Shown one piece after another: positions 40,593-46,433 of a stretch of DNA of 64,000 bases. The stretch is from the NCBI RefSeq assembly GCF_003367905.1, contig NZ_CP029462.1, forward strand, positions 2,294,001 through 2,358,000. Reading direction: 5' to 3'. This DNA comes from Megasphaera stantonii. Its GTDB lineage: Bacteria; Bacillota; Negativicutes; Veillonellales; Megasphaeraceae. A program made the position numbers and the translations under genes. The notes under the pieces are model-generated. The model saw nothing but the letters and a program-made list of their open reading frames with translations, searched no databases and was not told the origin of the DNA. Every line of letters begins with the position of its first letter. The stretch's first letter is position 1.

Positions 40593-40868
40593 ATGAAACA
40601 ATGCATGGATGCAGAGAATCTGCACCGCCGGCTGAAGAAGATCATCGGCCAGGTACAGGCTATCGACCGCATGATCGACGAAGATATTCCATGCGAAGAT
40701 ATCCTGTCGCAGATTAATGCGGCGAAATCGGCCCTGCATAAGTGCGGACAGGTTATTTTAGAAGGTCACATCCGCCATTGCGTCCGCGACGGCATTGCCC
40801 ACGGCGACCCGGACAAGACCATCGAAAAGTTTACGAAAGCCGTCGAACGGTTTGCGAATATTAAATAA
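40593..40868 (+). CDS. CsoR/FrmR family metal-sensing repressor
   Basis: A 91-residue all-helical repressor. The copper-type ligand set fits as Cys34 (IPCEDIL), His59 and Cys63 (LEGHIRHCV), the same C-H-C pattern as CsoR. It would leave DNA on binding Cu(I), a related metal or a thiol stress signal. The likely target is the P1B ATPase gene 2 kb downstream, whose promoter has a large CCCC/GGGG inverted repeat. It follows mutS2 closely and is ended by a strong terminator. Confidence 0.9.
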   Translation: MKQCMDAENLHRRLKKIIGQVQAIDRMIDEDIPCEDILSQINAAKSALHKCGQVILEGHIRHCVRDGIAHGDPDKTIEKFTKAVERFANIK

Positions 40869-40876
40869 AAATGACA

Positions 40877-40933
40877 TGAAAAGCCGCAGCGAAGCCGGCC
40901 TTTAACAAGGGCCTTCGCTGCGGCTTTTCTTTA
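40877..40933 (+). terminator. Terminator after the CsoR-family gene
   Basis: AAAAGCCGCAGCGAAG pairs with the complementary arm ending CTTCGCTGCGGCTTTT, with an extra inner GGCC helix. Confidence 0.9.
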
Positions 40934-40939
40934 TTATTT

Positions 40940-40987
40940 AAACGATTAACTTAAATTTGATGAGATACATAAAACGATTAACTTAAA
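40940..40987 (+). repeat. Pair of 16-bp direct repeats upstream of the T-box promoter
   Basis: AAACGATTAACTTAAA occurs at 40940-40955 and again at 40972-40987. The spacing is 32 bp, close to three helical turns, and the second copy ends 29 bp before the -35. This looks like a double binding site for an unknown regulator. Confidence 0.75.
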
Positions 40988-41016
40988 AGTTTACTGAAAA
41001 TTTTCAAAAAAACTGC

Positions 41017-41045
41017 TTGCCAAAGACTATGAGTTGTGGTACTAT
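41017..41045 (+). promoter_or_regulatory. Promoter of the T-box / MFS transcript
   Basis: TTGCCA (41017-41022) and TACTAT (41040-41045) are spaced by 17 bp. Transcription would start near 41052 and include the T-box leader. Confidence 0.65.
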
Positions 41046-41052
41046 GCATACA

Positions 41053-41328
41053 TCAAGTCAAAATAAAAATGCGTTGAAGAGAAATAGTAAGTTCCAGAAA
41101 GTTTGCAGAGAGCCGCTGGCTGGTGGGAAGCGGCAACGGAATGGAAGTGAACTCGTCTCGAAGCAGCTCCCTGAACATTGCAGTAGGCGGAGCCGGGGCC
41201 TGGCCGTTAACAGACAGGAGGGTATCGACACATTGTCCGTACCTGCTGAGGGCATGCCGTATGGCATGAATTAGAGTGGTAACGCGTGAGTAAATCTTTC
41301 GTCTCTGGTGAGATGAAAGATTTTTTTT
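41053..41328 (+). promoter_or_regulatory. T-box riboswitch, leucine specificity predicted (specifier CUC)
   Basis: The leader has the T-box plan: helix GAGA/TCTC (41079-41082 with 41156-41159) below, and TTCC/GGAA (41092-41095 with 41143-41146) above, a specifier loop with AGTA on the 5' side and GTGAACTCG on the 3' side. The specifier is CTC at 41152-41154, a Leu codon, followed by the usual purine. The T-box reads AGAGTGGTAACGCG (41274-41286), where TGGT would pair with the ACCA end of tRNA-Leu. The consensus C is replaced by A in GGTAACGCG. A terminator (AATCTTTC/GAAAGATT and eight Ts) ends the leader. Confidence 0.88.
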
Positions 41329-41378
41329 ATTTTGAGTTGTACTATGGAAAGAACAGAGATTTTGAAGGAGATGGTAGT

Positions 41379-42713
41379 ATGACGAACGAAACGAAGATTC
41401 CAAACACGCGATGGTGGCGCATTTTGCCGGCGACAGTGCTGGTATATATTGTGGCCAACATCGACCGCGCCAATATTTCCTTTGCCATGGCCGGCGGCAT
41501 GATGGAAGACTTGGGCTTAGACGCCGTGGCGATCGGCATGGCCATCGGCATTTTCTTCTGGGGCTATTTGCTCCTGCAGGTTCCGGGCGGCCATTTGGCG
41601 GAACGGAAGAGCGCCAAGCATTTCATTGCGGCCATGATCGTCATTTGGGGCGGCTGCGCGACGATTTGCGGATTTATCAGCACGTCCTTTGAATTCAACG
41701 TCGTGCGCTTTATTTTGGGCATCGCTGAAGGCGGTATTTTTCCGGCGATTTTAGTCATCATTTCTCATTGGTTCCCGCCGGCGGAACGAGCCCGCGCCAA
41801 TTCGATTTTCTTGCTGAGCTTCCCCTTATCGGCCATTATTTCCGGCCCCATTTCGGGCTGGCTCATCGCGACCTGGGGCTGGCGTGAAATGTTCATCATC
41901 GAAGGCGTTGCTTCCATCGCCTTGATTTTCTTGTGGATGCCCCTCATCGCTGACCGTCCGAGCAAGGCGAAATGGCTGAGTGAAGAAGAACGCAACTGGA
42001 TTGAAAGCGAACTGGCTGCCGAAGCGGCCGCGAAAAAAGCCGCTGCCGCCACGAATAAGAGCGCGACGAAGACGAGCTACAGAGAATTGGTCTTCGATAT
42101 TAACTTGTGGAAAATGGTTGCCGTATATTTCCTCATTTGCTGCGCCTTCTACGTATTGAGCTTCTGGCTGCCGACGATTATCAAGGATATCCTGAAAGCC
42201 GATATCGGCATGGTTGGCTGGCTGTCGGCGCTGCCGAATATCGCTGCCGCCTTGGGCATCGTCTTCTTCGGCCGCATGGCTGATAAGAGCCAGAACCGCC
42301 GCAAGTACTGCATCATTCCGTACGTCTGCGTCGGCCTGTGCATCATCGCTTCCGTATTTACGGCGTCCTATTCGGGTTGGCTGTCCTTTGCCTTCCTGTG
42401 CCTCTGCGGTTTCTTCTGGCTGTCGGGCCATCCCGTATTGTGGACTATCGTCGCCGAAACCTTCCAGCCCGAAGTGGCCGGCGGTGCCCGCGGAGCCATC
42501 AACGCCCTGGGCAATTTGAGCGGCTTCTTCGCTCCCATGCTGCTGGGCTACATGATTCAGAACTACAGCCGCGATGCCGGCATGTACATCTTTGCCGTAT
42601 TGGTATTCCTGGCTGCCGTCATCGTATGGTCCATGCCTAAAAATGCCGAAACAAAAGCTGCCGTAGAAAAGACGAGAGAACACGTAGCGGCGACGACGAA
42701 CGCCCACGCGTAA
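41379..42713 (+). CDS. MFS transporter (ACS, anion:cation symporter type)
   Basis: A 444-residue carrier with 12 predicted membrane segments and a central charged loop (about residues 200-235). The N-terminal NIDRANISFAM and GAEGGIFPA-like IAEGGIFPAIL motifs are typical of the ACS group, which moves organic anions such as hexuronates, phthalates and hydroxyphenylacetate. The T-box upstream predicts induction when charged tRNA-Leu is low. The cargo may thus be linked to leucine, for example a branched-chain keto acid, but that is inference. The ATG at 41379 follows AAGGAGATGG. Confidence 0.88.
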   Translation: MTNETKIPNTRWWRILPATVLVYIVANIDRANISFAMAGGMMEDLGLDAVAIGMAIGIFFWGYLLLQVPGGHLAERKSAKHFIAAMIVIWGGCATICGFISTSFEFNVVRFILGIAEGGIFPAILVIISHWFPPAERARANSIFLLSFPLSAIISGPISGWLIATWGWREMFIIEGVASIALIFLWMPLIADRPSKAKWLSEEERNWIESELAAEAAAKKAAAATNKSATKTSYRELVFDINLWKMVAVYFLICCAFYVLSFWLPTIIKDILKADIGMVGWLSALPNIAAALGIVFFGRMADKSQNRRKYCIIPYVCVGLCIIASVFTASYSGWLSFAFLCLCGFFWLSGHPVLWTIVAETFQPEVAGGARGAINALGNLSGFFAPMLLGYMIQNYSRDAGMYIFAVLVFLAAVIVWSMPKNAETKAAVEKTREHVAATTNAHA

Positions 42714-42734
42714 ACTTGTTGTCAGAAAACCATA

Positions 42735-42778
42735 AGAGATAGCGTGAAGGAGAGATTCCGACGCGCTGTCTCTTTTTT
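42735..42778 (+). terminator. Terminator of the MFS gene
   Basis: AGAGATAGCG pairs with CGCTGTCTCT and is followed by six Ts. Confidence 0.8.
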
Positions 42779-42785
42779 ATTTTAC

Positions 42786-42846
42786 TTGACTGCCTATACC
42801 CCTATATGTATAATGAACACATAAAAGATATACATATAGGGGTATA
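42786..42846 (+). promoter_or_regulatory. Promoter and probable CsoR-family operator of the P1B ATPase gene
   Basis: TTGACT (42786-42791) and TATAAT (42809-42814) are 17 bp apart. TATACCCCTATATGTATA (42795-42812) between and over them is perfectly complementary to 42829-42846 (18 of 18 bases, 16-bp gap). The C/G tracts flanked by A/T resemble CsoR-family operators. Confidence 0.8.
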
Positions 42847-42867
42847 CCTATTTAGGAGGGATATGAT

Positions 42868-44952: not shown

Positions 44953-46433
44953 GACTATGTGAAGCTTTTTCTGTAAATAACTGCTAGGTATAGGTCTTCT
45001 ATGATACAATCTAAATCATAGGAGGCTTAGTATCATGGCAAGAGAAAAGAAACCGGTACATAAGGTCATTATGACCGAAGGAAAACGCAGCATTATTCAA
45101 CAACTGTTTCAAGAATATGACATTCAATCCGCAGAAGATATTCAGGAAGCACTGAAAGACCTGCTGGGCGGTACCATCAAAGAAATGATGGAAACCGAGA
45201 TGGACGAACACCTTGGCTATCAGAAATCCCAGCGGTCTGACAGCGAGGATTACCGCAATGGGTATAAGAGAAAGCGGGTCAACAGCCGGTATGGTACCGT
45301 AGATATCCAGGTACCGCAGGACCGCAACTCCACGTTCGAACCGCAGGTGGTCCGTAAACGGCAAAAAGATATCTCTTCTATCGACCAGAAAATTATCTCC
45401 ATGTATGCCAAGGGAATGACGACCCGGCAAATTTCAGAAACGTTAGAGGATATCTATGGATTTGAGGCTTCCGAAGGCTTCATTTCCGATGTAACCGATA
45501 AAATCCTGCCTCAAATTGAAGACTGGCAGAAACGCCCGCTGTCGGAAGTGTATCCTGTCCTCTATATTGATGCCATTCATTATTCTGTCCGGGATAACGG
45601 AGTGATCCGGAAGCTGGCAGCCTACGTCATTCTGGGAATCAACATAGACGGACAAAAAGAAGTTCTGACGATTCAGGTCGGAGACAATGAGAGCGCAAAA
45701 TATTGGCTTTCCGTGCTGAATGAATTGAAAAATCGCGGGGTAAAAGATATCCTGATTCTCTGTGCCGATGGCCTGAGCGGGATCAAAGAAGCCATCGCCG
45801 CAGCCTATCCTAACACGGAATACCAGCGCTGCATCGTACATCAGGTACGAAACACGCTGAAATATGTAGCAGACAAGGATCGTAAGCCTTTTGCCAATGA
45901 TTTAAAGACTATTTATCAGGCTCCGTCTGAAGAACAGGCTTTGGAATCTCTGGAAAGGGTAACCAAAACATGGTCTGTAAAATATCCGAATTCCATGAAA
46001 AGTTGGAAGCAAAACTGGGATGCCATCTGCCCAATTTTCAAGTTTTCCATGAACGTAAGAAAAGTGATTTACACGACCAATGCCATCGAATCCCTGAATT
46101 CCACCTACCGGAAGCTGAACCGTCAGAGAAGCGTATTTCCAAGCGATACAGCGCTTTTAAAAGCCCTGTATCTGGCGACGTTTGAAGCCACCAAAAAATG
46201 GACCATGCCAATCCGAAACTGGGGACAGGTGTATGGGGAACTGAGCATAATGTACGAAGGCCGACTCCCAGAGTAACGCATAGCTGGCAAAAGCAGGCGA
46301 AAATCCTGTCTGTACTTGACATGTTCAGCATGTGTTGTTATATATAAACCATGAGCTGAAAGTTCTCAAATTCGCTTTCAGCTTACCAAGTATCATAGAA
46401 GATCTATGTTTACAGAGATTTTTTCACAGGCTC
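44953..46433 (+). mobile_element. IS256-family insertion sequence, complete
   Basis: A 1481-bp element with imperfect terminal inverted repeats. The left end starts GACTATGTGAAGC, and the right end, read inward, starts GAGCCTGTGAAAA. Both have TCTGTAAA at the same distance (18 bases in). TCTTCTATGATAC is shared further in. The target ATAATTTT is duplicated at 44945-44952 and 46434-46441. The 8-bp duplication and CTGTG-type ends fit IS256. The transposase is intact, so the element is probably active and recent. Confidence 0.93.
45035..46276 (+). CDS. IS256-family transposase
   Basis: A 413-residue mutator-type DDE transposase, full length with no frameshift. The catalytic region shows YIDAIHYSVRD (first Asp), ILCADGLSGIKEAI (second Asp), YQRCIVHQVRN and TTNAIESLNSTYRKL (Glu). 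The N-terminal DNA-binding part carries EMDEHLGYQKSQRSD and YRNGYKRK, as in IS256 relatives. The ATG follows ATAGGAGGC. Confidence 0.96.
   Translation: MAREKKPVHKVIMTEGKRSIIQQLFQEYDIQSAEDIQEALKDLLGGTIKEMMETEMDEHLGYQKSQRSDSEDYRNGYKRKRVNSRYGTVDIQVPQDRNSTFEPQVVRKRQKDISSIDQKIISMYAKGMTTRQISETLEDIYGFEASEGFISDVTDKILPQIEDWQKRPLSEVYPVLYIDAIHYSVRDNGVIRKLAAYVILGINIDGQKEVLTIQVGDNESAKYWLSVLNELKNRGVKDILILCADGLSGIKEAIAAAYPNTEYQRCIVHQVRNTLKYVADKDRKPFANDLKTIYQAPSEEQALESLERVTKTWSVKYPNSMKSWKQNWDAICPIFKFSMNVRKVIYTTNAIESLNSTYRKLNRQRSVFPSDTALLKALYLATFEATKKWTMPIRNWGQVYGELSIMYEGRLPE

Follow-up and report, generated by a model that had tools for sequence, protein, structure and literature searches.

In Bacillus subtilis it is the CUC triplet of the ilv-leu leader that places the operon under control by leucine (Marta 1996, cited in PMC2494555), and T-boxes are also on record ahead of transporter genes, namely yvbW, with a leucine T-box, and an MFS gene of Bacillus anthracis, with a lysine T-box (PMC2494555). 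Duplication of T-boxes together with a change of specifier has likewise been described earlier (PMC2494555; PMC3766115). We have analysed a stretch of 64,000 nucleotides of the Megasphaera stantonii genome (the window, to which plain coordinates refer), in which a T-box leader directly precedes a single gene encoding an MFS carrier (41379-42713). The predicted control is of the CUC leucine type, as in ilv-leu, and the leader has the same CTC and the same architecture as that of the leuACDB operon of this genome; however, both of those leaders serve biosynthesis genes, whereas here the target is one carrier gene. The yvbW and B. anthracis genes share the arrangement of a T-box before a transporter, and the latter provides an MFS precedent, but they are read as amino-acid carriers while the carrier in the window is nearest to organic-anion carriers. 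The T-box itself is ordinary and belongs to a known class, and it is the type of target that is new: no leucine T-box on a target of the anion:cation symporter (ACS) type was found in the literature searched, the surveys of Vitreschak (2008) and Gutierrez-Preciado (2009) lying outside that search, so that earlier reports for BASS or ACS carriers are possible. The features of the locus are the following.

41017-41045, forward strand: predicted sigma-70-like promoter, TTGCCA-17-TACTAT, matching the consensus and aligning with TTGCCA...TAATAT upstream of leuA
41065-41309, forward strand: T-box leader, leucine type, with 131.1 bits against RF00230 and 87% identity to the leuA leader
41071-41164, forward strand: stem I with specifier loop, AG bulge and distal loop, from the Rfam alignment, its pairs retained across 11 leaders
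41152-41154, forward strand: specifier codon CTC (Leu), from the Rfam columns, invariant in 11 leaders, a tRNA-Leu(GAG) gene being present
41273-41306, forward strand: antiterminator, with TGGT (41277-41280) opposite the tRNA ACCA end, from the Rfam alignment, pairs invariant or retained
41292-41333, forward strand: intrinsic terminator of 14 pairs and a T run, overlapping the antiterminator (the hairpin itself at 41292-41323)
41364-41370, forward strand: ribosome-binding site GAAGGAG, from the sequence, with ATG 8 bases on
41379-42713, forward strand: MFS carrier of ACS type, 444 residues, from PF07690, with TIGR00893 as best NCBIfam model (below its cut-off) and VGLUT2, sialin and DgoT as relatives
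42735-42773, forward strand: terminator-like inverted repeat 3' of the MFS gene, identified by eye

The Rfam T-box model, proposed as a check by the original prediction, covers the leader over its full length (model positions 1-219) with 131.1 bits and an E value of 7e-29, which exceeds the gathering score of 93 and places it among T-boxes; it is in fact the top scorer of the 18 T-boxes of this 2.65 Mb genome. The coordinates and motif positions first put forward are correct, with GTGAA, CTC and a purine, here G, at 41147-41155. The antiterminator and the terminator hairpin share bases and would be mutually exclusive, as required of a T-box, and the region 41267-41330 folds with a z score of -5.1 relative to shuffled sequences. 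A minimum-energy fold of the whole leader lacked the T-box fold and was set aside. Regarding the promoter, its consensus match alone is no better than chance (0.8 expected), but the alignment with leuA sets it opposite a promoter-like sequence of that leader. Upstream of it lies a 14-base direct repeat, AACGATTAACTTAA, at 40941-40954 and 40973-40986 with a spacing of 32 bases; no exact copies that might denote a regulon site were found elsewhere in the genome.

The specifier columns of the RF00230 alignment read CTC in the window leader and assign no other amino acid. As a control, the same columns were read in 12 T-boxes of this genome whose targets are known, the gene identities having been checked with NCBIfam models (ileS, which extends beyond the end of its locus, falls narrowly short of the cut-off), and the triplet fits the amino acid of the target in all 12: ilvC and ileS ATC, leuA CTC, metY-like ATG, thrS ACC, trpS and trpE TGG, valS GTC, pheS TTC, cysS and cysE TGC, and serC TCC. 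The genome also holds a tRNA-Leu(GAG) gene that ends in ACCA and complements the TGGT of the antiterminator bulge, as originally noted; by itself this motif is not diagnostic of leucine, since it is present in most T-boxes of this genome. Given the Rfam column, the presence of the same codon in all ten related leuA leaders, and this tRNA gene, we regard the T-box as almost certainly of the leucine type, in agreement with the original prediction. The core had been described as deviating from the usual one, and indeed GGTAACGCG is one base off the Rfam consensus GGTACCGCG. The deviation is nevertheless not notable: the same core is found in 10 of 10 related leuA leaders, the serC T-box of this genome has GGCAACGCG, and both CTC and TGGTAACGCG are invariant across the window leader and the ten leuA leaders. 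It is therefore a trait of the leuA leader lineage, and a functional oddity of the core was ruled out. A reading in which the T-box uses a different codon or does not function is accordingly very improbable, the one-base change being all that speaks for it, and one common to functional-looking leuA leaders, while the model column, the conservation, the kinship to leuA and the matching tRNA all concur against it.

The origin of the leader can be traced within the genome. Over 286 nt it shares 87% identity with the leader that heads leuA-leuC-leuD-leuB, and similar leaders are found upstream of leuA in 9 of 16 other genomes of the family. A tree places the MFS leader inside the set of leuA leaders, on a longer branch, in a group with the leuA leaders of the same genome and the sister species G001 (support 0.86 for the group and 0.41 inside it). 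Across the aligned leaders 15 of 44 pairs have changes on both sides, compared with 6.6 after shuffling and 1-5 when the partners are slid, and between the window leader and the leuA leader of the same genome one pair of distal stem I is compensated (GCCGC/GCGGC versus GCTGC/GCAGC). The window leader is a duplicate of the leuACDB leader of the same lineage. In G001 a P-type ATPase gene, with a promoter region of its own, comes immediately after the mutS2-like and csoR-like genes, and there is no counterpart of about 40896-42772. The unit made up of promoter, T-box, MFS gene and terminator is thus complete in itself; it was either gained here or lost in G001, and gain is favoured because a search of 60 other genomes of the order returned no close ortholog of the MFS carrier, the nearest there being 42-46% identical, compared with 49% for a Sporomusa protein. 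Among the 61 genomes of the order the unit is confined to one species, and long-standing linkage of the carrier gene to the csoR-like and P-type ATPase genes is unsupported, as the carrier gene is absent from the sister species. Matches in plasmid records were weak and limited to the coding region, with none to the leader. As to the surroundings, the csoR-like gene lies at 40593-40868, and the P-type ATPase gene is preceded by a palindrome, TATACCCC...GGGGTATAC (42786-42850), that is conserved in G001 (L164) and looks like a CsoR-type copper operator. The window also contains an IS256-like transposase gene (45035-46276), the same one being found downstream of the leu operon (L115:14643-15001).

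The carrier itself clearly belongs to the MFS (254.4 bits with PF07690, gathering 33.4). Its best NCBIfam model is TIGR00893, 'D-galactonate transporter', with 292.9 bits over positions 1-396 of 399, which falls short of the curated cut-off of 395 bits, and its relatives of known structure are VGLUT2, sialin and DgoT. Arg110 and Glu117 align with the arginine and glutamate of 'VRILQGLVEG' in VGLUT2 (chain 7t3n has glutamine at both positions), and their role is presumably the one known from VGLUT and DgoT. The carrier thus shares with ACS-type MFS proteins (TC 2.A.1.14: DgoT, VGLUT, sialin) the branch, a full-length match and the Arg/Glu motif, but differs from them in its sub-cut-off TIGR00893 score and in its predicted control by tRNA-Leu charging. 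The earlier assignment to the ACS group hence stands as nearest family and relatives, though not as formal membership of that model, and on sequence grounds transport of an organic anion is predicted. The nearest homologues, 44-49% identical, occur in Sporomusa and Gilliamella in operons of sugar-acid type; their neighbours, and those of a paralog in this genome that is interrupted by the same IS256-like transposase gene as occurs in the window (L120:4603-7360), encode a DHDPS-type aldolase, an iron alcohol dehydrogenase, IlvD/Edd and altronate dehydratase, which suggests sugar acids as the substrate in that subgroup.

T-boxes that specify branched-chain amino acids precede two further carriers of this genome. 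The first is a BASS/PanS-like carrier (L007; L117:8071-9207, reverse strand; genome 1146658-1147398) with the specifier GTC (Val), whose best models are bass and PanS, both below cut-off. Its close relatives in the genus (L132, L134-L140, L146-L149) have GTC, ATC or CTC, several genomes holding two copies with different specifiers, and more distant BASS paralogs (L141, L150, L152, L154) carry the 'pan' motif RF01749. For proteins of the BASS family, the reported substrates are pyruvate, pantoate and chain-elongated 2-keto acids (PMC10645422). The other carrier, termed here the second MFS (L017; L116:5253-6560, reverse strand), is ACS-like, 27% identical to the one in the window, and has the specifier ATC; its relatives in different species of the family (L123-L130) have ATC, TTC or GTC. 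As the triplet is constant, Asp (GAC/GAT) was considered as its specifier and set aside in view of the model column and of TGGT, which needs an A before CCA, where tRNA-Asp normally has G. Beside the second-MFS T-box of one relative lies a weaker, divergently oriented T-box (63 bits, ATC, core GTGGTCGCAC; L128:3481-3739, forward strand). Elsewhere in the genome a sodium:solute symporter gene (L004; L118:5833-7281, reverse strand) has a strong T-box of 120.7 bits in which the model column gives TTC (Phe), or GTT instead when the triplet immediately behind GAA is taken, and an ECF-type transporter operon (L012; L119:6065-9084, reverse strand) is under a Trp (TGG) T-box; at L002 the Rfam alignment gives ATC. 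The only BrnQ-type gene (genome 36936-38222) has no T-box and is distant from all 18. Together with the T-box carriers of the genus, this favours import of organic acids under shortage of these amino acids.

We propose that the anticodon of uncharged tRNA-Leu(GAG) would pair with CTC and its ACCA end with TGGT, and that the bound tRNA would stabilise the antiterminator so that the MFS gene is transcribed, whereas with charged tRNA-Leu the terminator would form. Leucine shortage would then turn on the carrier, which may import a leucine-related organic acid, most probably 2-oxoisocaproate or a 2-oxo or 2-hydroxy acid related to it that is convertible to leucine. We consider this explanation as a whole, a transcriptional tRNA-Leu(GAG) T-box derived from leuACDB and driving an importer of a leucine-related organic acid, to be somewhat probable; for the substrate class taken separately the chances are about even. 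The original prediction had suggested import of leucine, its keto acid or another precursor, and within this range the genus context speaks for an organic acid rather than for leucine. We infer an order of substrates with 2-oxoisocaproate or a related acid at the head, a sugar acid next and leucine last. Counterweights are the sugar-acid operons around the nearest homologues, which would suit a carrier preferring such substrates, and the identity of only 27% between the window carrier and the second MFS; moreover, with the unit present in one species of 61 genomes, the usefulness of the pairing has no support from conservation.

The switch might also work while the carrier takes up a sugar acid or another anion unlinked to leucine, the leuA leader having been copied by chance and kept as a starvation switch or as a neutral accident. 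The operon neighbours of the nearest homologues are the main support for this reading, and the recent, single-species nature of the unit agrees with it; however, stem pairs and specifier have remained intact after 13% divergence, with the compensated pair of stem I, and the genus repeatedly places branched-chain amino-acid T-boxes on anion carriers, so that we regard it as unlikely. Import of leucine, or of leucine-containing peptides, by a carrier under a working switch is more improbable still. Among T-box transporters whose role is known or predicted, most bring in the cognate amino acid (PMC2494555), and the example of the vesicular glutamate carriers shows that amino-acid anions can be transported by members of this MFS branch; yet leucine is zwitterionic, the Arg/Glu motif and the closest families point to carboxylate anions, and the BrnQ-type gene exists without a T-box.

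Import of a leucine-related organic acid being thus preferred for the window carrier, a tentative view, which we hold with some doubt, extends it to the genus: tRNA charging would control the salvage of branched-chain (perhaps also aromatic) 2-oxo acids through the BASS/PanS-like carriers, the second MFS carrier and that of the window, with specifiers switched among Val, Ile, Leu and Phe, and carbon skeletons instead of amino acids would be imported when a given tRNA is uncharged. The copy from leuA to the MFS gene is a clear and recent case of the spread of a tRNA switch to a new gene, at a site still empty in the sister species. If the proposal holds true, T-boxes would expose uptake routes for amino-acid precursors and provide substrate leads for carriers mislabelled by family names such as 'D-galactonate transporter'.
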